A stretch of DNA of 64,000 nt. It comes from Vogesella margarita. GTDB taxonomy: Bacteria > Pseudomonadota > Gammaproteobacteria > Burkholderiales > Chromobacteriaceae. A program made the position numbers and the translations under genes. The notes below the pieces were generated by a model. That model was not told the DNA's origin and ran no database searches. It worked only from the letters and a program-made list of their open reading frames with translations. This document shows positions 329 to 64,000 of this stretch, piece by piece; within the stretch, counting starts at the first letter, position 1, and the number at the start of each line of letters is the position of its first letter. The DNA is taken from contig NZ_JAQQLE010000004.1 of NCBI RefSeq assembly GCF_028548475.1, positions 1 to 64,000 of the forward strand, in the 5' to 3' direction.

Positions 329-1912
329 ATGACAACACTGAAGTTTGATGTCCTGATTATTGGTAGCGGCCTGGCCGGCATGACCCTGGCGCTGCATCTG
401 GCCGAGCATTACGAGGTCGGCCTCATCACCAAGCGGGATTTGCTGGAGGGCAGTTCTTCTTATGCACAAGGTGGTATAGCCGCAGTGCTGGATACCGGCG
501 ATTCGGTCGCCAAGCATATCGATGACACGCTGATCGCCGGCGCCGGGCTATGCAACGAAGAAACCACCCGCTTCATCGTCGAGAATTCGAAGGATGCCAT
601 TGACTGGCTGGTGGACCTCGGCGTACCGTTCACCCGGGATGCCAGTCACCAGACCGGCTTTCACCTGACCCGTGAGGGTGGCCACAGTCATCGCCGCATC
701 ATCCACGCCGCCGATGCCACCGGCGCGGCGGTGACGTCCACCCTTGGCCAAAAGATCAAGGCTCACCCGCGTATCCGCGTGCTGGAAAACCATATTGCGG
801 TCGACCTGATTACCGGCAAGAAGCTGGGGCGCAGCGAGAACCGCTGCTATGGTGCCTACGCACTGGACAAGGATCTGGACGAGGTGGTGACCATTGCGGC
901 CAACCATACCATCCTCGCCTCCGGCGGCGCCGGCAAGGTCTACCTCTATACCACCAATCCGGACACCGCCACCGGCGACGGCATCGCCATGGGCTGGCGT
1001 GCCGGCTGCCGGGTCGGCAATATGGAGTTCATCCAGTTCCACCCGACCTGCCTGTATCACCCGCACACCAAGTCGTTCCTGGTCTCGGAGGCGGTACGCG
1101 GCGAAGGCGGCATCCTGCGCCTGCCGGACGGCACCCGCTTCATGCCGCAGCACGACGAGCGCGCCGAGCTGGCGCCGCGCGACGTGGTAGCGCGCGCCAT
1201 CGACTTCGAGATGAAGAAGCACGGCCTCGACTGCGTGTATCTGGACATTTCCTACAAGCCGGCCAGCTTCATCCAGGAGCACTTCCCCAATATCTACGCC
1301 CACTGCCTGGAGCTGGGCATCGACATCACCCAGCAGCCGATTCCGGTGGTACCGGCGGCGCACTATACCTGCGGCGGCCTGGTCACCGACCTGGAAGGTC
1401 GCACCGATGTGGAGGGCCTGTACGCGGTCGGCGAGGTCGCCTGCACCGGCTTGCACGGCGCCAACCGTCTGGCCAGCAACTCGCTGCTGGAGTGCATGGT
1501 GATCGGCAAGGCGGCCGCGGCCAACATCCTGGCGTCGAAGACGGTGCCGCTGCCGGCGATTCCGGACTGGGACGACAGCCGCGTCACCGACCCGGACGAA
1601 GAGGTGGTGATCTCGCACAACTGGGACGAGCTGCGCCGCGCGATGTGGGACTACGTCGGCATCGTTCGCACCAACAAGCGGCTGGAGCGGGCGCTGCACC
1701 GCATCAACCTGCTGTCGGAAGAGATCAACGAGTACTACAGCCACTTCCACGTCAGCAACGACCTGATCGAGCTGCGCAACCTGGTGCAGACCGCCGAACT
1801 GATCGTGCGCTCTGCCCTGCTGCGCAAGGAGAGCCGCGGCCTGCACTTCAGCCGCGACTATCCGCAGACCGACGCCACCTGCCACGACACCGTGCTGACG
1901 CCGGCAGGCTGA
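329..1912 (+). CDS. nadB: L-aspartate oxidase NadB
   Basis: 527 residues, close to the usual ~535. NadB is a cytosolic flavoprotein that oxidises L-aspartate to iminoaspartate, the first step of de novo NAD synthesis (NadA uses the product). The N-terminus has the FAD-binding GSGLAG (residues 12-17) and the [10 protein letters not shown] segment. The family active-site stretch [10 protein letters not shown] and the FAD-contacting [12 protein letters not shown] follow, then the helical C-terminal domain shared with succinate dehydrogenase flavoproteins. The start ATG at 329 is chosen because homology begins there; an in-frame upstream extension to 242 looks non-coding. nadA and nadC are not nearby, so the gene stands alone. 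It converges on the sensor kinase gene through an inverted-repeat hairpin. Confidence 0.95.
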
Positions 1913-1919
1913 GCGACAC

Positions 1920-1950
1920 AAGGTTGGCCGCAGCCATTGCGGCCAACCTT
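1920..1950. terminator. Inverted pair of the dispersed repeat, likely bidirectional terminator
   Basis: AAGGTTGGCCGCA and its exact complement TGCGGCCAACCTT flank a 5-base loop between the convergent nadB and sensor kinase genes. The stem is 13 bp without a long T-run; a terminator role is inferred from the position. Confidence 0.7.
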
Positions 1951-5433: not shown

Positions 5434-5451
5434 ACCATCCCTGACTGACTG

Positions 5452-5491
5452 AAGGTTGGCCGCATTTCCTGCCTGGCATGCGGCCAACCTT
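5452..5491. repeat. Inverted pair of the dispersed repeat between dctP and dctQ
   Basis: AAGGTTGGCCGCA (5452-5464) pairs with TGCGGCCAACCTT (5478-5490) around a 13-base loop. It sits inside the operon, so it may act as a partial terminator or mRNA stabiliser that raises the ratio of binding protein to membrane subunits, a common need in transport operons (inference). Confidence 0.65.
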
Positions 5492-5513
5492 TGTCTTAAC
5501 CGGAGTCACTATC

Positions 5514-10152: not shown

Positions 10153-10186
10153 AAACGTTGGCCGCAACAGCTTGCGGCCAACGTTT
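10153..10186. terminator. Inverted pair of the dispersed repeat (AACGTT variant), bidirectional hairpin
   Basis: AAACGTTGGCCGCAA and TTGCGGCCAACGTTT form a perfect 15-bp stem with a 4-base loop, between the convergent phaM-like gene and the gene at 10206. A-rich and T-rich flanks suit termination in both directions. Confidence 0.8.
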
Positions 10187-28985: not shown

Positions 28986-29004
28986 ACGCGTGCCCCAAAA
29001 AAAT

Positions 29005-29040
29005 ATTGCGGCCAACCTTGTCACCAAGGTTGGCCGCAAT
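29005..29040. terminator. Inverted pair of the dispersed repeat, bidirectional terminator
   Basis: ATTGCGGCCAACCTTG and CAAGGTTGGCCGCAAT form a perfect 16-bp stem with loop TCAC, flanked by A-runs on the left and TTTT on the right. It separates the convergent cyclase and radical SAM genes. Confidence 0.87.
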
Positions 29041-29057
29041 GTTTTGTGCCCGCCGTC

Positions 29058-35808: not shown

Positions 35809-35828
35809 TTGCGGCCAACGTTGGCCGC
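35809..35828. repeat. Self-complementary variant of the dispersed repeat
   Basis: TTGCGGCCAACGTTGGCCGC: two half-sites overlap through the palindrome AACGTT. It lies in the gap before the acyl-CoA ligase stop. Confidence 0.75.
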
Positions 35829-35911
35829 CCACCTCCCCAAAAAACAACCGTGGCGGTGGCGACACCGCGCACGGTTGCTGTTGACGGGGTAAACCGCAAG
35901 GCGCCGGCGCG

Positions 35912-42077: not shown

Positions 42078-42108
42078 CTTGCGGCCAAGCTTTGACGTTG
42101 GCCGCAAG
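42078..42108. repeat. Inverted pair of the dispersed repeat, liuC-liuD gap
   Basis: CTTGCGGCCAA (42078-42088) and TTGGCCGCAAG (42098-42108) form an 11-bp stem around GCTTTGACG. It may reduce read-through into liuD. Confidence 0.7.
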
Positions 42109-48349: not shown

Positions 48350-48384
48350 AGGGTTGGCCGCACGCCGTGTTGCGGCCAACCTTG
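48350..48384. repeat. Inverted pair of the dispersed repeat, rmlA-rmlC gap
   Basis: AGGGTTGGCCGCA (48350-48362) pairs with TGCGGCCAACCTT (48371-48383) around an 8-base loop. It divides rmlBDA from rmlC. Confidence 0.75.
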
Positions 48385-49591: not shown

Positions 49592-50356
49592 TCAACCGCG
49601 ATAGCCGATCTGCGCGGAGATGTCGGCCGCCGCGCTGCGCAGCCGCTGCGCGATCACCCCGTTCCAGTCCGAGGAAAACGTCGCCGCCGGCCCCAGCGTG
49701 GTCATCACCAGCGCCAGCTGGCCGGCGTGATCGAACACCGGCGCACTGAAGGCGTTGATGCCGGGCAAGGGATAGCCCACCGCGCGCGCCATGCCGCGCT
49801 CGCGCACCCGCTGCAGCGCCGACTGGAACGCGGCCTGCTCCTCGATACCGGCCTGCCGCGCCGCCATTTCGCTGGCGATCATCTCCTCGGTCAGCCGCGG
49901 CGGCAGGTAGGCGGCAAACACCTTGCCGGTGGCCGAATCCAGCAGCGACATCACCGTGCCGGTCCGCATATTGATGTGCACCACGCGATTGCACTCCTGG
50001 ATGCGCACCACGGTCGGGCCGTGGTTGCCCCACACCGCCAGCGCCACGTTCTGCTGGATGTCCAGCGACAGCGCCGCCGCCCGTTCGGTGGCGATCTTGA
50101 CCGCGTCCAGCTCGTGCAGTGCCACCAGCCCCATCTGCAGCGCGAACGGCCCCAGTTTGTACAGGCCGCTGCCCGCGTCCTGCTCGATCAGCCCCAGCTT
50201 GCCGAAACTCACCAGATAAGGGTGCGCCTTCGCCGCCGGCATGCCGGCCTCGCCGGCCAGGTCCTTCAGCATCATCGGCGCTCCATGGCGCACCAGCGTC
50301 TGCAGCAGGCTGCCGCCCACCTCGATTGATTGGATTCCGCGCCGGTCTTTTTCCAT
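49592..50356 (-). CDS. IclR family transcriptional regulator
   Basis: 254 residues. An N-terminal winged helix (~10-70: SLLQTLVRHGAPMMLKDLAGEAGMPAAKAHPYLVSFGKLGLI) is joined to the IclR effector domain (~85-250), with DSATGKVFAAYLP and GINAFSAPVFDHAGQLALVMTTLGP typical of the family. Divergent from the VOC gene and followed on the other strand by the acetoacetyl-CoA synthetase gene, so it likely controls one or both in response to a small acid. The region between holds an A/T-rich palindrome. Confidence 0.9.
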   Translation of the reverse strand: MEKDRRGIQSIEVGGSLLQTLVRHGAPMMLKDLAGEAGMPAAKAHPYLVSFGKLGLIEQDAGSGLYKLGPFALQMGLVALHELDAVKIATERAAALSLDIQQNVALAVWGNHGPTVVRIQECNRVVHINMRTGTVMSLLDSATGKVFAAYLPPRLTEEMIASEMAARQAGIEEQAAFQSALQRVRERGMARAVGYPLPGINAFSAPVFDHAGQLALVMTTLGPAATFSSDWNGVIAQRLRSAAADISAQIGYRG

Positions 50357-50438
50357 CGTTACCCCGTCTTGCCCGCTGGCATGGTCAGTGTTGTTGAAAC
50401 GGCGGCAATTCTAGCATTTTCACCACGCCAGCAACGGC

Positions 50439-50480
50439 GATAATATTTGTTATTATCGAACAAATTGACCAATAACGAAT
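50439..50480. promoter_or_regulatory. Palindromic operator region between the IclR gene and the VOC gene
   Basis: CGATAATA-TTTGT-TATTATCG is a perfect inverted repeat (50439-50459) in an A/T-rich island. AATAACGAA follows at 50472-50480 and recurs at 51251-51259 before the acetoacetyl-CoA synthetase gene. It is a candidate site for the IclR regulator. Confidence 0.5.
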
Positions 50481-50580
50481 TAATGGTTAACTTGCCAGCA
50501 TCGCCACTGGCCGCCACCGCGATCAGTGCCAGACTGAAATCAGCGCCGCACCACGGCCACCGCTCACGGAGACAAGCATC

Positions 50581-51120
50581 ATGCTGATCAAGAAAATCCA
50601 CCACGTCGCCTATCGCTGCAAAGACGCCAAGGAAACGGTGGAGTGGTACGTGAAACACCTCGACATGAAGTTCGTGCTGGCGATCGCCGAGAACGAAGTG
50701 CCGTCCACCAAGGCGCCGGACCCGTACATGCACGTGTTCCTCGACGCGGGCCAGGGCAACATCCTCGCCTTCTTCGAGCTGCCGACGCGACCGCCGATGG
50801 ACCGCGATCCGAACACGCCCAACTGGGTGCAGCATCTGGCGATGGAGGTGGATTCACTGGACACCCTGCTCGCCACCAAGGCCCGGCTGCAGGCGGCCGG
50901 CATCGACGTGATCGGCCCCACCGACCACACCATCTTCAAGTCCATCTACTTCTTCGACCCCAACGGCCACCGCCTGGAGCTGGCCTGCAATACCGGCACG
51001 CCGAAGATGATGCAGATGCTGGACGAGGTGAAGTGGGACATGCTCAACGAATGGGCGGAAACGCGGAAGGCGCCGCAGCACGCGCGCTGGATGCACGACG
51101 GCAGCTACTCCGAAGACTGA
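50581..51120 (+). CDS. VOC (glyoxalase/dioxygenase fold) protein
   Basis: 179 residues. Two vicinal-oxygen-chelate modules: KKIHHVAYRCKDAKETVEWYVKHLD with the first metal His, WVQHLAMEVDSLDTL with the second, and YFFDPNGHRLELACNT with the metal Glu. The fold covers glyoxalase I, epimerases and extradiol dioxygenases; the reaction here is not clear. The gap to the acetoacetyl-CoA synthetase gene is 185 bases with a hairpin, so a common operon is uncertain. The shared regulator region suggests a role in acid or ketone catabolism. Confidence 0.85.
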   Translation: MLIKKIHHVAYRCKDAKETVEWYVKHLDMKFVLAIAENEVPSTKAPDPYMHVFLDAGQGNILAFFELPTRPPMDRDPNTPNWVQHLAMEVDSLDTLLATKARLQAAGIDVIGPTDHTIFKSIYFFDPNGHRLELACNTGTPKMMQMLDEVKWDMLNEWAETRKAPQHARWMHDGSYSED

Positions 51121-51128
51121 GCCTGCGC

Positions 51129-51160
51129 TTGCGGCCAAGCTTGCCCAAGGTTGGCCGCAA
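51129..51160. terminator. Inverted pair of the dispersed repeat after the VOC gene
   Basis: TTGCGGCCAAGCTTG and CAAGGTTGGCCGCAA form a nearly perfect 15-bp stem (one mismatch) with a 2-base spacer. No T-tract. Confidence 0.7.
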
Positions 51161-51305
51161 CACCCTGCCAGTAGCGGCACGGATCGCGAGGTCGGCGACC
51201 TATACCGCAGGCATGGCTGTGCAGTAAACTTGCCGGCAAACAGCTTTCATAATAACGAACGACACCCTTGAGCGACCCCACACGCTACCCGAGGAGAGAC
51301 TTGAT

Positions 51306-53267
<1,962 letters not shown>

Positions 53268-53271
53268 CATC

Positions 53272-53291
53272 TGCGGCCAACGTTAGCCGCA
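53272..53291. repeat. Self-complementary variant of the dispersed repeat
   Basis: TGCGGCCAACGTTAGCCGCA, a palindrome with one mismatch pair, immediately past the acetoacetyl-CoA synthetase stop. Confidence 0.7.
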
Positions 53292-53300
53292 AGCGCATGC

Positions 53301-53330
53301 AAAACGCCACCGTCTCCGGTGGCGTTTTTT
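53301..53330. terminator. Terminator after acetoacetyl-CoA synthetase (bidirectional)
   Basis: AAAACGCCACC and GGTGGCGTTTTTT form an 11-bp stem around GTCTCC with T-runs in both directions. It separates this gene from the convergent glycosyltransferase gene. Confidence 0.93.
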
Positions 53331-53345
53331 GTGGGTGGCGGCCGC

Positions 53346-54989
53346 TTACGGCAGGCGCTGCCACAGCACGAACTGCTCGCGCTTGTCGCGCGCGCGGTTG
53401 CCGCGCCAGCGCTCCTGCCAGCCCGGCAACGGCGCCTCGGCGTGGCGGTCGCGCACCATCAGCAACAGATTGCACGCCGGTGCGGCACCATCGGCGACCG
53501 GTTGCAGGCGCAGGCCGGCGTAGTACGCCCAGCTGATGCGCGCCAGCTGCTGACTGGCCGACACCGACACGCAGTGCTCGCCAGTCGGCATCGCACGCAT
53601 CATGCCCTGCACCACCGGCTGGTAGCTCTTGGCGGCATCGAGAAAAGGCAGCCACAGCGTCATCAGCAGCCCCCACAGCAACGCGAGACCGGCGGCCCAG
53701 TTGGTCACCGCCTGGCGGCCGCGCAGATGGCGCCGCGTCACCGCCCAGCCCCATAGCGCGGTGGCGACCAGCGCCAGCAGCAGCGCCAGCCACGACACCT
53801 GCGGCTCGTAGTAAGGGCTGAAATAGCGGGCGCGCTCCGCCAGCTTGACCGGCCAGCCGAAGTTCATCGCCGCCCAGCCCAGCCACACCAGCAGCGAGAA
53901 CAGGCCGAAGGCCATCAGGCCGAACCAGTTGAGGAAGGCGGCCGCGCCACGGCGCAGGCTGTCCAGCTCCACCGCTGCCAGCACCGCCAGCGGCAGCAGC
54001 AGCGGCATCGCGTCCTCGGTATTACTGCGGTTGGAGAAGGTCAGCAGCAGCAGGATCACCGCAAAGAACAGCAGCGGCAGCTGCAGCATCGGCAGCTCGT
54101 AGCGGCGGTTCTTCCATAGCGTCCATGCCGCCAGCGGCCACGCCGGCCAGCCGTACCACAACACCAGCTTCGGGTAGTAGCCGAACTCGTGGAACAGGCC
54201 CAGGCTACCGAAGCCGTCCAGCGGCCCTAGCGCGTGGAACTGCCACCAGGCATGGAACACCTCCGGCGCACCGCGATACAGTGCCAACGGCCACAGCGCC
54301 GCCAGCGGCAACGCGAACAGCAGCGCCATCAAGAGCGTGATGGCGTAGCCCTTGTTGCGCCAGCTGGCGAAGGCCGGCAGCATCAGCGCCACGCTCCATA
54401 CCAGCAGCACCGGCAACAGGCTGGTGGACAGGAACAGCACCACCGTCGCCGCGCCGAGGATGGCGCCGGAGAGCGCCGGCGCCCGCCGCGTCAGCACCAG
54501 CGCGTACAAGGCCGCGGCATAACCGGCAAAGCCCGCCACCACCGGGTTCATCTCGTGGCCGGTGACGATCAGCCCCAGGCAACCGATCAGGATCAGCACC
54601 ACGCTGCGGCCATGGCGTCCCCCAATCAGCTCGCGGCCAACCCCGCCGGCAAAGGCGAGGCCGATGGCCATGAACAGTGGCGTCGCCAGCCGCGCGGCGT
54701 CGTGCAGCGGCAGCAGCCACGGCGACAGCAGCCGCGCGAACAGCGTGGCCACCCAGTAGTACAGCGGCGCGCTGTCGAGATAGGCCTGGCCGTCGATCGC
54801 CGGCAACCACCACGGCCCGCCGGCCAGCATGTGCTGTACCACGGCGGTAACGTAGGGTTCGTCCGGCTTCCACGGCGTGTGCCCCAGAATGCCGGGCCAC
54901 AGCCAGGCAAAGGTCAGCAATAACAAGAGCCACGGTTTTTCGGTGGCGGCAGGCAGGCGGGACTGGGAAGAGTCGCTATAGGTCAGCAT
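53346..54989 (-). CDS. Membrane GT-C glycosyltransferase (ArnT/PMT-like, GT83 type)
   Basis: 547 residues with about 11-13 membrane helices. The first periplasmic loop holds HTPWKPDEPYVTAVVQHML, including the Asp-Glu pair of the GT-C catalytic loop, then GQAYLDSAPLYYW. This is the pattern of ArnT-like enzymes that move a sugar from a polyprenyl carrier to lipid A or a glycan. No arn genes are close, so the acceptor is unknown. The ATG at 54989 is chosen; a TTG at 55010 would add seven residues. The C-terminal ~100 residues are soluble. Confidence 0.82.
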   Translation of the reverse strand: MLTYSDSSQSRLPAATEKPWLLLLLTFAWLWPGILGHTPWKPDEPYVTAVVQHMLAGGPWWLPAIDGQAYLDSAPLYYWVATLFARLLSPWLLPLHDAARLATPLFMAIGLAFAGGVGRELIGGRHGRSVVLILIGCLGLIVTGHEMNPVVAGFAGYAAALYALVLTRRAPALSGAILGAATVVLFLSTSLLPVLLVWSVALMLPAFASWRNKGYAITLLMALLFALPLAALWPLALYRGAPEVFHAWWQFHALGPLDGFGSLGLFHEFGYYPKLVLWYGWPAWPLAAWTLWKNRRYELPMLQLPLLFFAVILLLLTFSNRSNTEDAMPLLLPLAVLAAVELDSLRRGAAAFLNWFGLMAFGLFSLLVWLGWAAMNFGWPVKLAERARYFSPYYEPQVSWLALLLALVATALWGWAVTRRHLRGRQAVTNWAAGLALLWGLLMTLWLPFLDAAKSYQPVVQGMMRAMPTGEHCVSVSASQQLARISWAYYAGLRLQPVADGAAPACNLLLMVRDRHAEAPLPGWQERWRGNRARDKREQFVLWQRLP

Positions 54990-55036
54990 GGGACAGCCGT
55001 ACTCGGACAATGGGCTTCAGGATAAACCGGAACAAC

Positions 55037-55063
55037 AAAAAAGGCAGCCGTGGCTGCCTTTTT
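55037..55063. terminator. Terminator of rpmE
   Basis: AAAAAAGGCAGCC and GGCTGCCTTTTT form a stem with a 2-base spacer (GT). T-runs on both strands fit termination of rpmE and of rightward reads. Confidence 0.88.
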
Positions 55064-55083
55064 GCGGACTGCTGCAAGCGTGA

Positions 55084-55299
55084 TTAGCGCTTGAAGAAGC
55101 TGCCGAACTTCTGGTTGAAGCGGTCAACACGGCCAGCGGTGTCAACGATCTTCTGCTTGCCAGTGTAGAACGGGTGGCACTCGGAGCACACTTCGATATG
55201 GAAGGCGTCTTTAGCCATGGTGGACTTGGTCACGAAAGTGTTGCCGCAGGAGCAAGTCACGTTCACTTCTTTGTAGTTCGGCTGGATGTCAGCTTGCAT
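55084..55299 (-). CDS. rpmE: 50S ribosomal protein L31 (zinc-containing type)
   Basis: 71 residues, the usual length. [24 protein letters not shown] begins the protein. Cys16, Cys18, Cys37 and Cys40 (TCSCG, VCSECH) are the zinc ligands of the C+ form, so the zinc-free YkgM type is not the one seen here. AAAGGAAAAG lies upstream of the ATG. It has its own promoter and terminator. Confidence 0.97.
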
Positions 55300-55320
55300 G
55301 GTCTTTTCCTTTTCAATCGG

Positions 55321-55387
55321 GCGCAGGGGTTTTGCCTGCGCTTCATCTAAAACGCAGCATTATCCGCACTTGGTAATGGTTTGGCAA
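55321..55387 (-). promoter_or_regulatory. rpmE promoter and leader hairpin
   Basis: On the minus strand -35 TTGCCA (55387-55382), a 17-base spacer and -10 GATAAT (55364-55359) form a sigma-70 promoter. The leader holds GCGCAGG/CCTGCGC (55321-55341), a 7-bp hairpin just before the ribosome site that could serve L31 autoregulation (inference). Confidence 0.75.
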
Positions 55388-55424
55388 GGGTTTGGCAAGC
55401 AAATGCTGGCCGCGCCCTTCGTGC

Positions 55425-56795
55425 TCAGGCACGGCGCCAGGTGGTGGTGCCGGCGCTGTCTTCCAGCACGATGCCGGCAGCGGTCAGCTCGTCGCGAATG
55501 CGGTCGGACTCGGCCCAGTTCTTGGCGGCGCGTGCATTCTTGCGCGCCTGGATCAGCGCCTCGATCTGTTCTGCCGACAGGCCGTCGCCGGCCTCGCCCT
55601 GCAGGAAGGCTTCCGGATCGCGCTGCAACAGGCCCAGCACACCGGCCAGGTCCTTCAGCAGGCGTGCCTGCTGCACGTCGCGGCTCTTGTTGACTTCGCC
55701 GGCCAGCTCGAACAGCACGGAAATCGCCTCGGAGGTGCCGAAGTCGTCGTCCATCGCCGCCTTGAAACGCGCCGCGTAGGCGTTGTTCCAGTCGATGCCG
55801 CCGGAAGCCGGCAGCTCCAGACCGCGCAAGGCGGTGTAGAGACGGGTCAGGCCTTGCTTGGCGTCGTTCAGGATGCCGTCGGTGAAGTTGACCGGGCTGC
55901 GGTAGTGGCTACGCACGATAAAGAAGCGGATCACCTCGCCATCGAAATGGCCGAGCACGTCGCGGATGGTGAAGAAGTTGCCCAGGCTCTTGGACATTTT
56001 CTCGCCGTCGACGTTGATGAAGCCGTTGTGCATCCAATAGTTCACGTACTGCTGGCCGTGCGCGCCTTCGCTCTGCGCGATTTCGTTCTCGTGGTGCGGG
56101 AACTGCAGGTCCTCGCCGCCGCCGTGGATGTCGAAATGCTCGCCCAGGTGGTGGCAGCTCATCGCCGAGCACTCGATATGCCAGCCCGGACGGCCGGCGC
56201 CCCAAGGGCTTTGCCACTGCGGCTCGCCCGGCTTGGCCGCTTTCCACAGCACGAAGTCGTGCGCGTCGCGCTTGTTCGGGTCCACCTCGACGCGCTCGCC
56301 GGCGCGCAGGTTGTCCAGCGTCTTGCCGGACAGCTTGCCGTAGCCGTCGAACTCGCGCACCGCGTAGTACACGTCGCCGTTGGCCGCCGGATAAGCCTTG
56401 CCGCGGGAGATCAGCTTGCTGATGATGTCCTGCATGCCGCCGATGTGGGCGGTGGCGCGCGGCTCGAAGGTTGGCCGCAACAGGCCCAGCGCCTCGGTGT
56501 CGGCGTGCATGTCGGCGATGGTTTCTTCCACCAGCGCCTCGGCGCTGATGCCGCGCTCGGCGGCGCGCTTGATGATCTTGTCGTCGATGTCGGTGATGTT
56601 GCGCACGTAGGTGACGTCGTAACCGGAGGCGGCGAACCAGCGGTAGATCACGTCGAACGCGGTCAGCATGCGCGCATGGCCGATGTGGCACAGATCGTAG
56701 ACAGTCATGCCACACACATACATCTTTACCTTGCCGGGTTCGATCGGGTTGAATGCTTCTTTTTGGCGGGTCAGTGTGTTGTAAAGATTAAGCAT
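55425..56795 (-). CDS. cysS: Cysteinyl-tRNA synthetase CysS
   Basis: 456 residues, class I synthetase. Zinc ligand Cys28 in [13 protein letters not shown] motif in LCHIGHARM (~36-43), [12 protein letters not shown] with further zinc ligands, and KMSKSLGN (~265-272). It charges tRNA-Cys. The ATG at 56795 begins [13 protein letters not shown] as in the family. A copy of the dispersed repeat (56467-56480) is inside the coding region; in the gene frame it reads LRPTF. Single gene, with 162 bases to the divergent ABC gene. Confidence 0.97.
56467..56480 (-). repeat. Dispersed repeat copy inside cysS
   Basis: The plus strand reads AAGGTTGGCCGCAA. On the gene strand TTGCGGCCAACCTT encodes LRPTF, a third reading frame compared with the argE and radical SAM copies. 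Confidence 0.8.
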
Positions 56796-56957
56796 GACTG
56801 GATGAGCCTGTGCAGTTGGTTATTGGTGAACCGCTATTGTAGCAAAGCTGTCAATCACCCCGCAGCGGAGTTTGCCGCTGCCCCGCCCGCGCAAAAAACG
56901 CTATGCTGGCGGCCATATCCAAACGGATTTTGCATTACCGCACCATAAGGAGAACCG

Positions 56958-58751
56958 ATGAACTGGAGTCAGGAACTGCTGCAAAGCGCCATCTGGCTGG
57001 GCGAGGCCACCGCCATCACGCTCGTGGCATCACTGTTGCTGGGGATCGCGCTGGCGCGCACCACGGTGTGGGGACGCCAGTTCTGGCGGCTGGCGGCACC
57101 GTTTTTCACCCCGCGCGTCAGCGGCTGGCGACCGTTGCTGAGCCTGGGCTCCATCCTGCTGATCACGCTGGCCGGGGTACGCGTCAACGTGCTGTTCTCG
57201 CGCTGGTACAACGATATGTACAGCGCGCTGCAACAGCTGAACGTGAAGCTGTTCTGGGCCTCGATGCTGATCTTCGGGGTGCTGGCGGCGGTACACGTCG
57301 GCCGCTCGCTGCTGGAGTACTACCTGCGCCAGGTCTTTGCCATTCACTGGCGGGAGTCGCTCAACGAGTACTTCCTCGGCAAGTGGCTGGACAAGCAGGG
57401 CTACTACCGCAGCCAGCATCTGGCCAAGCCGGCGGATAACCCGGACCAGCGTATCCAGCAGGACATCAGCAGCTTTGTCGGCTCCTCGCTGTCGCTGGCG
57501 ATGGGGGTGATCGACGCGCTGGTGTCCACCTTCGAATTCACGCTGATCCTGTGGGGGCTGTCCGGCATGTTCGCGCTGTTCGGCGTCGAGATCCCGCGCG
57601 GGCTGGTGTTCATGGTCTACATCTACGTGATCGTCGCCACGGTGCTCGCGTTCCGCATCGGCAAGCCGCTGATCCGGCTCAACTTCCTCAACGAAAAATT
57701 CGGTGCCGACTACCGTTACGCACTGGTGCGGCTGCGCGAGTACGGCGAGAACATCGCCTTCTACCGCGGTGAGAAGGTCGAAGGCACCACCCTGCGCCTG
57801 CGCTTCCGCCAGGTGATCGGCAACGCCTGGGACATCGTGCACCGGACGCTGAAGCTGTCCGGCTTCAACCTGATCGTCAGCCAGACCGGGGTGATTTTCC
57901 CTTTCATCCTGCAGGCGCCGCGCTTCTTCTCCAAGCAGATCACGCTCGGCGACATGGTGCAGACCTCGCAGGCCTTCGGCCAGCTGCAGAGCAACCTGTC
58001 CTTCTTCCGCAGCGCCTACGACGAGTTCGCCGGCTTCAAGGCGGTGCTGGATCGTCTGACCGGCTTCATCGACGCCATCCACAGCGCCGACCAGCTGCCA
58101 ACACCGCAGCTGACACCGCAGAACGAGGGCCTCAGCGTGTGGCAGCTGACGATCCGCACCCCGGACGGCAAGCCGCTGCTGGCCGAGCTCGGCTTCAGCC
58201 TTGGCGCCGGCCAGGCGCTGCTGATCCGCGGCCCGTCAGGCAGCGGCAAGACCACGCTGCTGCGCGCCATCGCCGGGCTGTGGCCGCACTGTGACGGCCA
58301 CATCCAGCGCCCGCCGCAAAGCGAGGTACTGTTCCTGTCGCAGCGCCCCTACCTGCCGCTGGGCAGCCTGCGCGCGGCGCTGCACTACCCGCATCCGGCC
58401 TCGGCCAATACCGAGCGCGCGGCGGAAGTGCTGCGCTCGGTGCAGCTGGGCCACCTGATCGACAAGCTGGACGAGGAAGCCGACTGGGGCCGCATCCTGT
58501 CGCTGGGCGAGCAGCAGCGCCTGGGCTTCGGCCGCCTGCTGCTGGCGGCGCCGAAGGTAATCTTCCTCGACGAGGCGACCTCGGCGATGGACGAAGGGCT
58601 GGAGGAGGCGCTGTACCACCTGCTGCGCACTCGCCTGCCGCACGCCACGCTGGTCAGCGTCGGCCACCGCAGTACGCTGCTGATCCACCACCAGTTCACG
58701 CTGACGCTGCGCAGCGGCGGCGAGTGGAAGCTGGAGTCGCTGAGCGAATAA
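56958..58751 (+). CDS. SbmA/YddA-type ABC transporter (fused membrane and ATPase domains)
   Basis: 597 residues. The N-terminal ~340 residues with about 6 helices match the SbmA/BacA membrane domain (RVNVLFSRWYNDMYSALQQLN, HWRESLNEYFLGKWL, NPDQRIQQDI). The C-terminal ABC ATPase has Walker A GPSGSGKTT, signature LSLGEQQRLGFGR, Walker B VIFLDEATSAMDE. The family (YddA, Rv1819c, human ABCD) moves peptides, cobalamin or long acyl chains; the cargo here is unknown. AAGGAG precedes the ATG. Single gene, divergent from cysS. Confidence 0.9.
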   Translation: MNWSQELLQSAIWLGEATAITLVASLLLGIALARTTVWGRQFWRLAAPFFTPRVSGWRPLLSLGSILLITLAGVRVNVLFSRWYNDMYSALQQLNVKLFWASMLIFGVLAAVHVGRSLLEYYLRQVFAIHWRESLNEYFLGKWLDKQGYYRSQHLAKPADNPDQRIQQDISSFVGSSLSLAMGVIDALVSTFEFTLILWGLSGMFALFGVEIPRGLVFMVYIYVIVATVLAFRIGKPLIRLNFLNEKFGADYRYALVRLREYGENIAFYRGEKVEGTTLRLRFRQVIGNAWDIVHRTLKLSGFNLIVSQTGVIFPFILQAPRFFSKQITLGDMVQTSQAFGQLQSNLSFFRSAYDEFAGFKAVLDRLTGFIDAIHSADQLPTPQLTPQNEGLSVWQLTIRTPDGKPLLAELGFSLGAGQALLIRGPSGSGKTTLLRAIAGLWPHCDGHIQRPPQSEVLFLSQRPYLPLGSLRAALHYPHPASANTERAAEVLRSVQLGHLIDKLDEEADWGRILSLGEQQRLGFGRLLLAAPKVIFLDEATSAMDEGLEEALYHLLRTRLPHATLVSVGHRSTLLIHHQFTLTLRSGGEWKLESLSE

Positions 58752-58760
58752 GCCGGCACC

Positions 58761-58793
58761 AGGGTTGGCCGCAACGCGTTGCGGCCAACCTTG
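58761..58793. terminator. Inverted pair of the dispersed repeat after the ABC transporter gene
   Basis: AGGGTTGGCCGCAA and TTGCGGCCAACC(TTG)CCCT form a 12-bp core stem with loop CGCG, extended by outer AGGG/CCCT bases. Confidence 0.8.
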
Positions 58794-58844
58794 CCCTGTT
58801 CCAGCCGTGTACGGATAGCGGAAAAGTCCGACCCGACAGAATGC

Positions 58845-58881
58845 AAAAGGCCGCCGGCACCCATGGTGCGGCGGCCTTTTT
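58845..58881. terminator. Terminator of ridA
   Basis: AAAAGGCCGCC and GGCGGCCTTTTT form an 11-bp stem around an inner GCAC/GTGC hairpin; T-runs on both strands. It follows the ridA stop. Confidence 0.88.
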
Positions 58882-58915
58882 GCGCGGCGATCAGACTGCC
58901 GGCGCCATGCCGGTC

Positions 58916-59260
58916 TTAGCGGCTGGCGACGATGCGGATCTCGATCTTCCAGTCCGGATGGGCCAGTTTCGCCTGTACCGTGCAGCGCACCGGCGCATTG
59001 CCTTCCGCCACCCAGGCGTCCCACGCCTCGTTCATGGCGTCGAAATCGGCGAGATCGGTCAGGAAGATGGTGGCTTCCACGATCTTGCTCTTGTCGCTGT
59101 CCAGCTCGGCCAGCACGGTGTCGATCAGGCCCAGGGTCTCGGCGGTCTGCGCGCGGGCATCGCCCTGCCCGCTTTCCGGTACCTGCACGGTGTAGATCAG
59201 GCCGTTGACGACCACGGCCTCCGACATGCGCTTGCCTGGTTTGTGACGATACAGACTCAT
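58916..59260 (-). CDS. RidA/YjgF family enamine/imine deaminase
   Basis: 114 residues, slightly shorter than most RidA proteins (~128). NGLIYTVQVPESGQGDARAQTAETLGLIDTVLAELD is the trimer core, NAPVRCTVQAKLAHPDWKIEI holds the conserved Arg that binds the imine carboxylate. The family destroys reactive enamine/imine intermediates of amino acid metabolism; close relatives with other functions exist. The ATG at 59260 with GGGAG upstream is preferred over a 60-residue longer ORF. Single gene. Confidence 0.88.
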   Translation of the reverse strand: MSLYRHKPGKRMSEAVVVNGLIYTVQVPESGQGDARAQTAETLGLIDTVLAELDSDKSKIVEATIFLTDLADFDAMNEAWDAWVAEGNAPVRCTVQAKLAHPDWKIEIRIVASR

Positions 59261-59311
59261 TGCGACTCCCGAATAAACAGATAATGGACACTGGCGCCGT
59301 TCGGCGGCACC

Positions 59312-59341
59312 AAACAAAACGCCGGAGACTCGCTCCGGCGT
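59312..59341 (-). terminator. Terminator of the desaturase gene
   Basis: On the minus strand ACGCCGGAG and CTCCGGCGT form a 9-bp stem around CGAGT, then TTTGTTTG. Confidence 0.83.
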
Positions 59342-59361
59342 CGGGTCAGACAATAGCGGGT

Positions 59362-60543
59362 TCAGGCTACCGAGGCGCGGCGCAGGCTCAGCGAGAAACG
59401 CTGCAGCGATTCGATACCGCTGGCCTCGGCGCGGGCGCACCAGTCCTGCAGTTCCTTCAGCAGCTCGTCACGAGTCAGCGACGAGCGCTCCCACAGGCGC
59501 GACAGCTCCTGGCGCATCGAGTACACGGTATGCAGCACCTGGCTCTTTTCCAGCACCACAGCCAGCTGCTCGCGTTCCTGCGCCGGGGTGTCCTTGGCGT
59601 CCTGCTTCAGCCACACCTTCATCTTGCGTACCAGCTGCGGCGCCTTCAGTTCCGGCAGGTGCAGCTTTTCCACCTCGCTGCGGTACACGTCCTTCAGCTC
59701 GCGGGCGTAGCGCGCGGCCACCGCGTAGCGGTTGGCGATGATCGCCTGCAGGTGTTCCAGATCCAGCTGCTGGGCACGCTGCTCTTCCACCAGCCGCGGC
59801 GCGACCTTGCGCACCTTGGCGAGGCCGCAGATTTCCAGAATGCGGATGTACATCCAGCCGATGTCGAACTCGAACCACTTGTACGACAGCTTGGCCGAGG
59901 TACCGAAGGTGTGGTGGTTGTTGTGCAGCTCTTCGCCACCGATCAGGATGCCCCACGGCAGCACGTTGGTGGACGCGTCTTCGTTCTCGAAGTTGCGATA
60001 GCCCCAGAAGTGGCCGATGCCGTTGATCACGCCGGCGGCGAAGAACGGAATCCACGCCATCTGCACCGCCCAGATCGACAGGCCGGCCGCGCCGAACAGC
60101 AGCACGTCGATGGCCAGCATCAGCAGGATGCCCTTGCCGGTGTGCTTGGTATACAGATTGTGTTCCAGCCAGTCGTCAGGCGTGCCGTGGCCGAATTTTT
60201 CCATGATGCTGCGGTCCTTGCAGGCGGCGCGGTACAGTTCGGCGCCTTCCCACATGACTTTCTTGATGCCCAGCACTTGCGGGCTGTGCGGGTCTTCCGC
60301 CGTTTCGCAGCGTGCGTGGTGCTTGCGGTGAATCGCCGCCCATTCCTTGGTCACCTGGCCGGTAGTCAGCCACAGCCAGAAACGGAAAAAGTGGCTAGGA
60401 ATCGGGTGCAGGTCCAGGGCGCGGTGCGCTTGATGACGATGCAGGAAGATGGTCACCGACGCGATGGTGATGTGGGTCAGAACCAGCGCCACCACGATAT
60501 AACCCCACCAGGGCAGGTCGATCAGACCGTTAAGCCATTCCAT
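59362..60543 (-). CDS. Membrane fatty acid (acyl-CoA/phospholipid) desaturase
   Basis: 393 residues. The three His boxes of delta-9 type desaturases are present: HRHQAHR (~35-41), HRKHH (~72-76) and HNNHH (~206-210), with membrane helices between. They bind a di-iron centre that puts a double bond in an acyl chain with O2. The last ~130 residues (after KVRKVAPRLVEEQ) are an extra helical region absent from minimal desaturases; their look (SLTRDELLKELQDWCARAEASGIESL) recalls the C-terminus of ISL3-type transposases. Proteobacterial homologues often have this tail. Single gene. Confidence 0.9.
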   Translation of the reverse strand: MEWLNGLIDLPWWGYIVVALVLTHITIASVTIFLHRHQAHRALDLHPIPSHFFRFWLWLTTGQVTKEWAAIHRKHHARCETAEDPHSPQVLGIKKVMWEGAELYRAACKDRSIMEKFGHGTPDDWLEHNLYTKHTGKGILLMLAIDVLLFGAAGLSIWAVQMAWIPFFAAGVINGIGHFWGYRNFENEDASTNVLPWGILIGGEELHNNHHTFGTSAKLSYKWFEFDIGWMYIRILEICGLAKVRKVAPRLVEEQRAQQLDLEHLQAIIANRYAVAARYARELKDVYRSEVEKLHLPELKAPQLVRKMKVWLKQDAKDTPAQEREQLAVVLEKSQVLHTVYSMRQELSRLWERSSLTRDELLKELQDWCARAEASGIESLQRFSLSLRRASVA

Positions 60544-60701
60544 TCGTAGTCAAACCTCATTGTTTTAACAGAGATAACGCACCATTTTACACAATTCGCC
60601 GGCGTAAACGGCAAAAGAATCGACAGTCGCCAGCGTACCGATTCGTCACACCGGCGCGGCTATTGTAAGATACGCAGTCATTTCGTCACTCAGGCCGGAT
60701 C

Positions 60702-62282
60702 GTGAACGTCAACAAGCACGCTATCAAACTCACCGCCGCCGCTGTCGCCGGCACTTTTGCTTTCTATGGCGCTTTTTCCTACTGGGCCGGCATCAAGGCC
60801 GAGGAAACGCTGACAGAGCAACACCAGATGATTGCGGCGATGTCGGTGTTCAAGGTCAAGTCGCACCAGTACCAGCGCGGCTGGTTCTCGTCGCAGGAAA
60901 CCACCGAGCTGGAATTCAACCAGGAACTGCTCGGACCCTATATCGGCCTGCTGCCGGAGAACGTGCGCCCGCTGTTCCAGGGCATCATCCGCTACCACCA
61001 CGACGTGGCACACGGCCCGCTGCCAGGCCTGCTCAGCGGCCACTTCAGCCCCGGGCGCGCCCGCGTCGAAACCACCTTCGACATGAGCGAGGGCACGCGC
61101 AAGACACTGCAACGCTTCTTTGGCGACGCCGAGCCGATCACCGTGGTCAACCACCTCGGCCTCGCCGGCGGCGGCGAGCTGAGCGTGTCGGTGCCGAAAT
61201 TCGACTACGAGGAAACCCTGGCCGGCGTGAAGATGACCTGGCGCGGTTTCGACCTGCGCCTGAACTACGCCGACGGCTACAAGGAATACCAGGCCGAGTC
61301 GGTGTCACCCGGCTTCGTGCTGGAGGCCGGCCCCAAGGGCCGCTTCAGCTTTGACAACATCCGCTACCTGTCCGACGTGCGCCCGGGCAACACCGGCGTC
61401 AAGCTCGGCACCGGTGAGCTGTCGGTGGCCAATGTCCACCTGAAGTGGAACGAAAGCATTCCGTACAGCATCAAGCTCAACGAGCTGATCCACCTGGTCA
61501 GCCGCGTACGTGTCGGCGAGTTCATCAACCCGAGCGGCGAATTCCGCCCGTCGAACGTCGAACTGAAGAACCTGAAATACCAGATCGTCACCAGCGAGCA
61601 GGAAGAATTCATCAACACCCGCGGCAAGCTGGATTTCGACACCTTCAGCTACAACGACAGCGTGTACGGCCCGCTGAAGCTGGACATCTCCGCCAATCAC
61701 CTGCACGGCCCGACGCTGGTGAAGCTGGACCAGGCCTTCACGCGCATCCCGTTCGAGGAGAAGGACCCGACGCAGCTGCGCAAGCGCTACATCGAGGCGA
61801 TCACCAAGCAGGGCCTGCCGCTGCTGATCAACGATCCGAAGATCATGATCAACACCTTCTCGCTGCGCATGCCGACCGGCGAGGCCAAGCTTGACGGCCA
61901 GATCGCGCTGCAGGGGTTGCAGGAAAGCGACCTGAAGACGCCGCTGGAATTCATCAAGCGCTTCATCGCGCTGCTCAACATCGAGCTGCCGCGCCAGACG
62001 CTGGAAAACCTGGTGGTGGCGCAAGCGCGCAACCTGTTCACCGTCGACGCCAGCGCCGAAGAGCAGCCGGATCTCGGCGAAATCGACAACCTGGCCAAGA
62101 GCCTGCTCGACGCCCAGCTCAGCGAGTGGAAAAGCCAGAAGCTGATCTCGGAGCAAAACGGCCAGCTGGCCACCAAGATCGATTTCAAGAACGGCGCGCT
62201 GCTGGTCAACAGCACCCGCGTCGCCCTGCCGTGGGAAGAAGAGGAAGATCCGGCGCCGCCGGCCGCCTCGGCCGCCCAGTAA
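60702..62282 (+). CDS. DUF945 (YdgA-like) family protein
   Basis: 526 residues. An N-terminal membrane anchor or signal segment (KLTAAAVAGTFAFYGAFSYWAG, ~9-30) is followed by a long periplasmic region of mixed alpha/beta with YQRGWFSSQETTELEF and HGPLPGLLSG, the marks of the DUF945 family. Function unknown; YdgA of E. coli is linked to the cell envelope. The start is GTG at 60702 (no ATG fits the family N-terminus). The C-terminus ends in EEEEDPAPPAASAAQ, a charged tail. Divergent from the desaturase gene. The third MITE-like copy starts at its stop. Confidence 0.82.
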   Translation: MNVNKHAIKLTAAAVAGTFAFYGAFSYWAGIKAEETLTEQHQMIAAMSVFKVKSHQYQRGWFSSQETTELEFNQELLGPYIGLLPENVRPLFQGIIRYHHDVAHGPLPGLLSGHFSPGRARVETTFDMSEGTRKTLQRFFGDAEPITVVNHLGLAGGGELSVSVPKFDYEETLAGVKMTWRGFDLRLNYADGYKEYQAESVSPGFVLEAGPKGRFSFDNIRYLSDVRPGNTGVKLGTGELSVANVHLKWNESIPYSIKLNELIHLVSRVRVGEFINPSGEFRPSNVELKNLKYQIVTSEQEEFINTRGKLDFDTFSYNDSVYGPLKLDISANHLHGPTLVKLDQAFTRIPFEEKDPTQLRKRYIEAITKQGLPLLINDPKIMINTFSLRMPTGEAKLDGQIALQGLQESDLKTPLEFIKRFIALLNIELPRQTLENLVVAQARNLFTVDASAEEQPDLGEIDNLAKSLLDAQLSEWKSQKLISEQNGQLATKIDFKNGALLVNSTRVALPWEEEEDPAPPAASAAQ

Positions 62283-62433
62283 GAGCCTGTTCAAAGTCTC
62301 GCGAGCAAGAGCGAGACAAGGCGAAAGCGCCTGAGGAAGCGGCGTTTAGCTGGATATAACCAGCATGCAGAAGGCGCTTTTAACGCCGTATCGCCCCATT
62401 GAGATCAGTCGCAGCAGACATTGAACAGGTTCT
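62282..62433. repeat. MITE-like palindromic element, copy 3
   Basis: 152 bp from AGAGCCTGTTCA to TGAACAGGTTCT (one mismatch). Inner stems: AAAGCGCCT (62324-62332) with AGGCGCTTT (62372-62380), and AGCTGG...CCAGC around ATATAA (62348-62364). These stems differ in sequence from copies 1 and 2 but still pair. The left end overlaps the TAA of the DUF945 gene. Apart from the terminator that follows, the ~300-base gap to the next gene holds nothing else I can name. Confidence 0.85.
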
Positions 62434-62443
62434 AAGGCCTGCG

Positions 62444-62470
62444 GCCCCGTATCACGACACGGGGCTTTTT
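62444..62470 (+). terminator. Rho-independent terminator after copy 3
   Basis: GCCCCGT and ACGGGGC form a 7-bp stem around ATCACGAC, then five Ts. It probably terminates the DUF945 transcript after the repeat. Confidence 0.8.
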
Positions 62471-62588
62471 CTTGCCCGCCGCCCCGTCATGCCATGCCCT
62501 TAAAACGGCAGCAAGCACGCAATGAATCCCGCCGGCAGCCCCCCTTGAACTAGGCTGAAAGCAGAAACCCACCGGAAGACCGTACACC

Positions 62589-63626
62589 ATGAGCCTGCCC
62601 CTGAATGTCGCCCTGATCGGTTACGGCTACGCCGGCCGCACCATCCACGCCCCGTTGCTGCGCGCCTGTCCGCAGCTGTGCCTGCATACCATCGTCAGCA
62701 GCAAGGGCGAACAACTACTGCACGAACATCCGGACAGCCGCGTACTCAGCGACGTGGCGCTGGTGCTGGCCGATCCGGACATCGACCTGGTGGTGATCGC
62801 CAGCCCCAACGACAGCCACTTTCCGCTGGCGGCGGCGGCGCTGGCGGCCGGCAAACACGTGGTGGTCGACAAGCCATTCACGCTGACCTCGGCCGAGGCA
62901 CAGGAGCTGCAGGTGCTGGCCGGCGTGTACCGGCGCCAGCTGTCGGCCTTTCACAACCGGCGCTGGGATGCCGACTTCCTCACCGTGCGCCAGCTGCTGC
63001 AGGACGGCACGCTGGGCGACATCGCGCTGTTCGAGTCGCGCTTCGAGCGCTACCGGCCGCAAGTGCAGGCGCGCTGGCGCGAATCCGCCGGCGCCGGCGG
63101 CGGGCTGTGGTTCGATCTGGGCCCGCACCTGCTGGACCAGACGCTGCAGCTGTTCGGCCGGCCGCGCACCATCCACGCCGACTTCGCCGCGCAACGCTGC
63201 GGCGCCGTCGCCACCGACTACTTCCACGTTCAGCTGCACTACGGCCGGCTGCGGGTGCGGCTGTCGGCCAGCAGCCTGATCAGCGGCGGCGTGCCGCGTT
63301 TCGCGGTGCACGGCACGCTGGGCAGCTACGTGAAGTACGGGCTGGACACCCAGGAAGCGGCGCTGAAGCGCGGCGAGGCGCCGGGCTGCGCCGGCTGGGG
63401 CGAGGACCCGCTGCACGGCCTGCACTACTGGCAACAGGATGGCGAGGAGCACGGCGACGTGGTGCCGACCGTAAACGGCGACTACCGCCACTACTACAGT
63501 GCAGTGGCGGCGGCGATCCGCGGTGAAGGCGCCAACCCGGTGCCGGCGGACGACGCGATCACGGTGATGCAGCTGATCGAGCTGGGACTGGACAGCGCCC
63601 GCAACGGCCGCGAGCTGCTGGTATAA
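62589..63626 (+). CDS. Gfo/Idh/MocA family NAD(P)-dependent oxidoreductase
   Basis: 345 residues. The Rossmann motif is GYGYAGRTIH at ~11-20, and DKPFTLTSAEA (~94) is the family's EKP-like dinucleotide contact. The C-terminal half holds the substrate domain with FHNRRWDADF and WFDLGPHLLDQTLQLFG (His in the usual catalytic area). It resembles the E. coli YdgJ/YhhX group, whose substrates (sugar-like or inositol-like) are not settled. No sugar operon surrounds it. It converges on the regulator gene through a strong inverted repeat. Confidence 0.9.
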   Translation: MSLPLNVALIGYGYAGRTIHAPLLRACPQLCLHTIVSSKGEQLLHEHPDSRVLSDVALVLADPDIDLVVIASPNDSHFPLAAAALAAGKHVVVDKPFTLTSAEAQELQVLAGVYRRQLSAFHNRRWDADFLTVRQLLQDGTLGDIALFESRFERYRPQVQARWRESAGAGGGLWFDLGPHLLDQTLQLFGRPRTIHADFAAQRCGAVATDYFHVQLHYGRLRVRLSASSLISGGVPRFAVHGTLGSYVKYGLDTQEAALKRGEAPGCAGWGEDPLHGLHYWQQDGEEHGDVVPTVNGDYRHYYSAVAAAIRGEGANPVPADDAITVMQLIELGLDSARNGRELLV

Positions 63627-63637
63627 GACCACGCTGC

Positions 63638-63685
63638 AAAACGCTTGCGGCCAACCTTGATACCAAGGTTGGCCGCAGGCGTTTT
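63638..63685. terminator. Inverted pair of the dispersed repeat, bidirectional terminator
   Basis: AAAACGC-TTGCGGCCAACCTTG pairs with CAAGGTTGGCCGCA-GGCGTTTT around a loop of 4 bases (ATAC), one unpaired or mismatched position, with A- and T-runs at the ends. It lies between two convergent genes. Confidence 0.88.
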
Positions 63686-63702
63686 GTCCTGACGCAGACG
63701 CG

Positions 63703-64000
63703 CTATTCCCACACCACGCTGCTGACGAACAGGTAGCCGGCGCCGTACACGGTCTTGATCAGGCGCGGATTGTAGGAGTCGTCCTCCAGCTTGCGCCGCA
63801 GCCGCGAGATGCGCACGTCGATGCTGCGGTCGAACGGCGAGATGTCGTTCTGCCCCAGCAGCTGCTCGCGCGGCAGCACACGGTTGGGCCGCTCCAAAAA
63901 GCGCAGCAGCATCAGCCCCTCGCCGGCGCTGAGCGGGCGCTCGCTGCCGTCCGGCGCGTACAGCGACAGCCGCGCCACGTCGAAACGCCAGCCGGAGAAA
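63703..64000 (-). CDS. OmpR/PhoB-family response regulator, C-terminal part (cut by window edge)
   Basis: Only the winged-helix DNA-binding domain is inside: FSGWRFDVARLSL, LSAGEGLMLLRFL, LPREQLLGQNDISPFDRSIDVRISRLRRKLE and KTVYGAGYLFV, typical of OmpR-like regulators. The receiver domain lies to the right, beyond position 64000; the frame is open to the edge, so the apparent start at 63978 (a GTG codon) is not the true one. Its kinase is not visible. The Gfo/Idh/MocA gene converges on it. Confidence 0.9.
   Translation of the reverse strand, partial: FSGWRFDVARLSLYAPDGSERPLSAGEGLMLLRFLERPNRVLPREQLLGQNDISPFDRSIDVRISRLRRKLEDDSYNPRLIKTVYGAGYLFVSSVVWE

Follow-up and report, generated by a model that had tools for sequence, protein, structure and literature searches.

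The closest described counterparts of the repeat reported here are the uptake sequences (DUS) of the Neisseriaceae. As far as the available parts of the published accounts go, these are 10- to 12-mers present in about a thousand or more copies (PMC3630211, PMC1852404); they are spelled in genus-level dialects and go together with a ComP-type pilin (PMC3630211), and their inverted pairs are enriched between convergent genes, neighbours in the same orientation being rare (PMC3630211, PMC1852404). The resulting uptake-sequence terminators of Neisseria were described by Kingsford 2007 (PMC1852404) and Frye 2013 (PMC3630211), in the portions of those papers accessible to us. The USS of the Pasteurellaceae likewise form gene-end hairpins, but they have different letters, occur in a different class of bacteria and have another minor pilin, PpdA/ComN, as predicted receptor, according to partial texts (PMC1852404, PMC12616744). 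Frye 2013 saw no obvious DUS in Laribacter, Lutiella, Pseudogulbenkiania and two Chromobacterium genomes, and the accessible part of the text names no Vogesella among these five (PMC3630211).

Vogesella is placed by the NCBI taxonomy in the Chromobacteriaceae, Neisseriales. The window analyzed here, a stretch of 64,000 bases, belongs to a Vogesella genome (G000) assembled as 3,329,447 bases in 26 contigs, and it contains many copies of a repeat with consensus AAGGTTGGCCGCA (13-mer) and core GTTGGCCGCA (10-mer), 20 of the former and 37 of the latter. In the whole 3.33-Mb genome the 13-mer has 951 exact copies, compared with none for a reversed-word control, an abundance of the kind known from DUS. 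The copies are split 466:485 between the strands, and an apparent one-sidedness along contig C1 proved to be an artefact of the places listed (80 forward, 20 reverse). In a 464-kb sample (the window plus C1:1-400000), forms with one mismatch inside TTGGCCGC hardly occur, with 0 or 1 copies each, and the base preceding GTTGG is G or, less often, C; the conserved unit comprises only 10 to 13 bases. The 12-mer AGGTTGGCCGCA is present in 680 to 1095 copies in all 13 Vogesella genomes, compared with at most 15 in each of 48 other family members, and in an order-wide draw of 300 genomes the 13-mer reached 905 to 960 copies in three Vogesella and no more than 3 in the other 297. No Rfam family matched at gathering score in the window or in stretches L143 and L144. 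We regard the repeat as a genus-specific, uptake-sequence-like word of Vogesella; its distribution is that of an uptake sequence, from which we infer a role in uptake. The open literature that we searched (supplements excluded) yielded no report of the word as an uptake sequence. Among the matches listed there (titles and abstract starts), none of six 10-mers was tied to uptake, and the sole co-occurrence of CGGCCAAC with "uptake sequence" was a paper in which CGGCCAAC sits in a cloning primer.

The word differs from the DUS of the Neisseriaceae in being found in a different family and in its letters. The core common to Vogesella and related genera, GTTGGCCG(C/A)A, has CCG at +6 to +8 instead of the CTG given as invariant in the available part of the DUS survey (PMC3630211). 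CCG is present in every spelling that we found; the A at +10 is kept in the GCA and GAA spellings but not in GAG. A letter homology to the Neisseria DUS GCCGTCTGAA was considered but is not claimed: the GAA spelling agrees at 6 of 10 positions (P = 0.03 in fixed register, 0.14 with register and strand free), and GCA and GAG agree at 5 of 10. Because the invariant CTG is absent and the letter similarity is not significant, we do not class the Vogesella word as a Neisseria DUS dialect. A parallel exists in the pattern of change, in that A to C at +9 sets King3DUS apart from kingDUS (PMC3630211, seen in part), and likewise Vogesella from its sisters with the GAA spelling.

A sequence-only reading of the window had proposed that nine close inverted pairs of the repeat serve as gene-end hairpins. 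All nine are present, built from AAGGTTGGCCGCA, and their stems are perfect or nearly so, as described: seven consist of two exact GTTGGCCGCA copies, and those at 42078 and 51129 each have one mismatch in one arm. The loops, given as 2 to 13 bases, measure 0 to 12 bases between the arms. The four pairs assigned to convergent genes are indeed there, and the pair at 58761, which faces the minus-strand gene 58916-59260, makes a fifth; the remaining four, said to end genes or split operons, lie between tandem genes.

The convergent pairs, with neighboring genes named from Pfam matches, are 1920..1950 (exact arms, loop 5) at the end of nadB, facing a histidine kinase gene; 10153..10186, with an AACGTT variant in both arms; 29000..29045, with 21-nt arms that are 95% complementary, a gap of 4, a fold z-score of -8.3 and A/T flanks that extend the stem; 58760..58793 (gap 0), where an ABC transporter gene meets a gene of the L-PSP family running towards it; and 63637..63686, flanked in the same convergent manner by a Gfo/Idh/MocA-family gene and a gene for a response regulator. 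This last pair has 23-nt arms (63637-63659 and 63664-63686, so that the span of 63638-63685 first given is one base short at each end), 96% complementary around a gap of 4, and it folds at -45.5 kcal/mol (z = -8.4). The tandem pairs are 5452..5491 (exact arms, gap 12) between dctP and dctQ; 42078..42108, after an enoyl-CoA hydratase gene; 48350..48383, between genes for a nucleotidyltransferase and a dTDP-sugar epimerase; and 51129..51160, after a glyoxalase-family gene. By our own gene calls, all nine start 6 to 21 nt past the stop codon of the upstream gene. Their folding energies range from -23.5 to -45.5 kcal/mol and their z-scores from -1.5 to -8.4; the weakest fold is that at 51129, for which 15 of 200 shuffles fold as well. 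Two palindromic pairs with one mismatch each, absent from the earlier reading, lie at 53272..53291, 4 nt after a stop and between convergent genes, and at 35810..35829, in a convergent intergenic region whose left gene call is doubtful.

We extended the pair survey to 864 kb of G000 (26%), consisting of the window, C1:1-400000 and the first 200,000 bases of each of C2 and C3, with genes called by a simple ad hoc caller of our own and close pairs defined as copies no more than 16 bases apart. The caller leaves a flagellin cluster of 7.8 kb without genes, and a stretch of 4 kb that one of the pairs faces is likewise uncalled. The 546 copies of the 10-mer (260 plus, 286 minus) form 77 inverted close pairs and no direct ones. 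Apart from 3 that are genic or at a sample edge, the pairs are intergenic. Convergent regions hold 39 of these 74, where 17.3 would be expected from the number of bases, tandem regions hold 35 and divergent regions none; 65 of the 74 follow a stop by no more than 60 nt, compared with 18.5 expected. Neither the convergent count nor the stop-proximity count was matched in any of 20,000 random placements, and the same holds for the zero divergent count, so the pairs are far from randomly distributed relative to gene ends, in agreement with the gene-end position first proposed for them. An exact pair is present in 37 of the 116 convergent intergenic regions.

In 26 of the 77 pairs the 10-mers adjoin without a gap, and 24 of these form the palindrome TGCGGCCAACGTTGGCCGCA; of the intergenic gap-free pairs, 20 of 24 lie no more than 60 nt past a stop. 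The overlapping simDUS/kingDUS dyads of Simonsiella resemble these gap-free pairs, but the accessible text reports no placement preference for them (PMC3630211), whereas those of Vogesella are mostly just after stops. Single copies (392 of 546 outside exact close pairs) are genic or at an edge in 271 cases; the intergenic ones comprise 64 in tandem, 36 in convergent and 21 in divergent regions. Within 60 nt of a stop lie 66 of these 121, so that the preference for stops belongs in part to single words.

Orthologous gene ends show what the pairs replace. At the end of nadB, a word pair lies 8 to 20 nt past the stop in 10 of 11 Vogesella orthologues, with differing loops, and in the eleventh, that of G351, a plain hairpin of G+C with a short run of T takes its place; two of the 13 Vogesella assemblies (G348 and G350) gave no such orthologue. 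Among 17 orthologues from nine other genera there is no word pair, and 11 show, by eye, an ordinary hairpin followed by T. The gap between dctP and dctQ contains a word pair in all four Vogesella sequences read (the window, G343, G345 and G347); elsewhere, hairpins of unrelated sequence with T runs are present in G302 and G341, and inspection by eye shows a weak hairpin or none in G117 and G328. The word pairs at nadB and dctP thus stand where relatives have ordinary hairpins, and this replacement at the same place is the best support for the view that a pair does a terminator's work. Other genera that carry a word have kept an ordinary hairpin at the end of nadB, so the word pair is one solution among several. 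The hairpin between dctP and dctQ (window 5434-5513) is kept across genera despite different letters, and it possibly sets the ratio of binding protein to transporter.

We propose, with a probability of roughly 0.72 for the reading as a whole, that the repeat is an uptake-like word whose inverted pairs act as terminators or 3'-end stabilizers. Some 70% of the single copies are genic (or at a sample edge), and single copies would probably label DNA as self in natural transformation, through type IV pili that include a minor pilin resembling ComP. Where two inverted copies lie just past a stop codon, the transcript is predicted to fold into a strong hairpin, which between convergent genes may serve as a two-way terminator and between tandem genes as a partial terminator or a 3'-end stabilizer; the pairs may be kept because they help end or protect transcripts. 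Sister genera would do likewise, each with its own spelling.

The most durable alternative accepts the uptake word but denies the terminator: intergenic DNA 3' of genes would tolerate pairs, and the hairpins would at most slow mRNA decay. Like a Rho-independent terminator, the pairs provide a G+C-rich hairpin shortly after a stop codon, but T content beside them is raised only to a moderate degree, in runs that are short and sometimes taken up in the stem. In the 10 nt outside looped pairs the T count is 4.3 where genes converge; at tandem pairs it is 2.9 on the downstream side and 2.6 on the upstream side, and beside single copies it is 1.7. T is thus not asymmetric about the tandem pairs, unlike the Neisseria uptake-sequence terminators as far as the available descriptions go. 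A strict hairpin-plus-T scan of 50000-64000 returned 13 sites (10.9 expected by shuffling), and the pairs at 51129, 58761 and 63645 are not among them. Complementarity of the flanks outside 31 pairs is weak (P 0.01-0.25). The weak T runs, the missing asymmetry, the three unlisted pairs and the position of intergenic singles near stops would all suit mere tolerance. Tolerance would not by itself explain why all 77 close pairs are inverted, why they are found between convergent genes at more than the expected number, why T content is highest there, or why the corresponding sites of relatives hold ordinary hairpins with T after them. We consider it unlikely, and think it probable that the paired words at gene ends, folded as hairpins, contribute to ending transcripts.

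Less probable still is that the word is a binding site for a chromosomal protein acting in segregation, recombination, nucleoid structure or methylation, and not an uptake word. Such a site would fit the high copy number and also the spacing, since the 217 sites of C1:1-400000 (pairs merged) are more evenly spaced than random (coefficient of variation 0.78 compared with 0.99 for the null, reached in 0 of 2,000 trials). However, polar segregation sites and Chi-type sites are strand-biased, and neither the 13-mer nor the surveyed 10-mer shows any such bias. The existence of sister spellings and of a ComP homologue, described below, is instead the pattern reported for uptake sequences in the part of the survey seen (PMC3630211).

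A mobile palindromic repeat (REP or MITE) that a transposase had spread to sites behind genes would account for hundreds of copies, inverted pairs and intergenic enrichment, but we think it very improbable, given that most singles are genic or at an edge, that the conserved unit is so short and that the word did not arrive by insertion in the genes compared. All 11 Vogesella orthologues of nadB have the single word that lies inside this gene (895..904, minus strand), the 17 others lack it, and the 28 align there without a gap; the site of the copy inside cysS (56470..56479, plus strand, antisense to the gene) aligns without a gap in 80 of 80 orthologues, so that in both genes tested the word arose by substitution in place. 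Equally hard to credit is a merely favored terminator stem with no uptake role, which would explain the gene-end hairpins but neither the many copies outside close pairs and inside genes nor a core that hardly varies, when terminators need no fixed letters.

Genic words favor certain reading frames; in the window and C1 sample, for example, one frame holds 67 of 161 antisense words. The only word-free stretch longer than 6 kb in C1:1-400000 is 12.3 kb long (88937-101217). We considered whether the word is missing there because the DNA was acquired, but the gap is within the 95% Poisson limit for the largest gap, 14.3 kb, and is neutral on this point. The stretch includes a flagellin/FlaG/FliD/FliS cluster (G000:C1:91748-99514; L145:11748-19514) that is low in G+C (about 0.48 to 0.56) and outside the genome's codon usage; a 438-residue neighbor of the cluster has no Pfam match.

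Unbiased word counts on 20 to 60 kb from each of nine genera, together with whole-genome counts, revealed related words in six sister genera (g4, g137, g138, g140, g141 and one member of g3), and none in the samples of g2, g136 and g139. The GAA spelling, GTTGGCCGAA, has 2168 copies in G331, 1851 in G338, 1368 in G117, 1245 in G283, 1104 in G339, 893 in G341, 579 in G330 and 183 in G340, compared with 8 to 78 in the other 53 genomes. The GAG spelling, GTTGGCCGAG, was found in the samples and pair listings of G328 and G329. When AGGTTGGCCGAA was counted in 399 genomes drawn from across the order, only G117 and G283, two Chromobacteriaceae, gave high numbers, and the 386 genomes from outside that family had at most 4 copies. 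Pairs were counted across genomes with loops of 2 to 16 bases, the inverted patterns, which are palindromic, being counted on one strand. Inverted pairs outnumber direct ones by 1510 to 58 in the 13 Vogesella genomes and by 543 to 22 in 10 other carriers, compared with 7 to 4 in 38 genomes without a word; inverted pairing therefore follows the dialect.

The sampled g3 stretches (L164-L166, from G223 and G302) are dominated by an AGAGAC-type tandem array, which swamped the word counts for that genus. A kingDUS-like dialect in g2 was also considered, since CCGGCAGCCTGA stood out in 60 kb, and was rejected because GGCAGCCTGA is flat at 28 to 98 copies in all 61 genomes. Within g3, G117 has its 1368 copies of GTTGGCCGAA against 11 to 36 in nine congeners; within g138, G330 and G331 differ as the totals above indicate (579 and 2168); and within g141, the low count of G340 comes from an assembly that is 84% complete, against 1104 and 893 in its congeners. 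Judged from these counts, gain, loss or decay of GTTGGCCGAA is apparently under way within genera.

A candidate reader of the word, a type IV minor pilin, is encoded at C1:11036-11470 of G000, beside genes that we take, from their order and sequence starts, to be aroB, aroK and pilQ, P, O and N. Its best match among solved structures is 2nba (E = 3.7e-10), which is presumably the ComP of N. subflava; the further ComP entries 2m3k (7e-7) and 5hz7 (4e-6) rank behind several general pilins. The G331 orthologue matches only 2nba, 2m3k and 5hz7 at E values up to 0.001. The homologue is present in six Vogesella genomes (G000, G027, G342, G344, G192 and, at 49% identity, G351) and in sister genera. 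No such homologue was seen in G345, whose single PF16732 match is another pilin, or among all but one of the PF16732 matches in each of G347 and G350; the reading covered the Vogesella genomes other than G343, G346, G348 and G349. Genomes without the word also encode diverged relatives of the homologue, and PF16732 matches, found in 61 of 61 genomes, do not discriminate. A ComEC domain is present in 28 of 30 genomes, the exceptions being two of the 13 Vogesella assemblies (G348 and G349). The gene neighborhood of the homologue (aroB, aroK and others) recurs in G027 and is absent from 12 loci of about 5 kb each in other genera; as it is not shared by those genera, ComP orthology rests on sequence.

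The likening of the pairs to the uptake-sequence terminators of Neisseria is supported by their gene-end placement and by the replacement of ordinary hairpins at nadB and dctP, and further by the copy number, the restriction to a genus, the sister dialects with inverted pairs of their own and the ComP homologue. It is about an even chance that the Chromobacteriaceae hold a second, undescribed set of uptake dialects, with core GTTGGCCG and ComP-like readers, in which the word is respelled genome-wide and terminators are rebuilt from the current spelling. Whole genomes would then have been respelled together, by A to C at +9 in Vogesella and A to G at +10 in another genus. If this is true, uptake-sequence systems reach a neighboring family in which the 2013 survey saw none obvious in five genomes, and a single family would contain three spellings, word-free lineages and the contrast between G117 and nine relatives. 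How an uptake code is gained, lost or altered wholesale would become directly testable, in bacteria mostly of water and soil, and there would also be a natural experiment on how terminators are made out of a repeat whose reason for existing lies elsewhere.

The orientation of the pairs varies among carriers. Over the whole G000 genome, with loops of 2 to 16, both orientations are common (103 and 67 inverted pairs, with 1 direct), whereas Neisseria, in the accounts available, strongly favors one. The word followed by its reverse is the commoner arrangement in G000, and the preference is reversed in G328 (39 to 91) and G329 (21 to 61).
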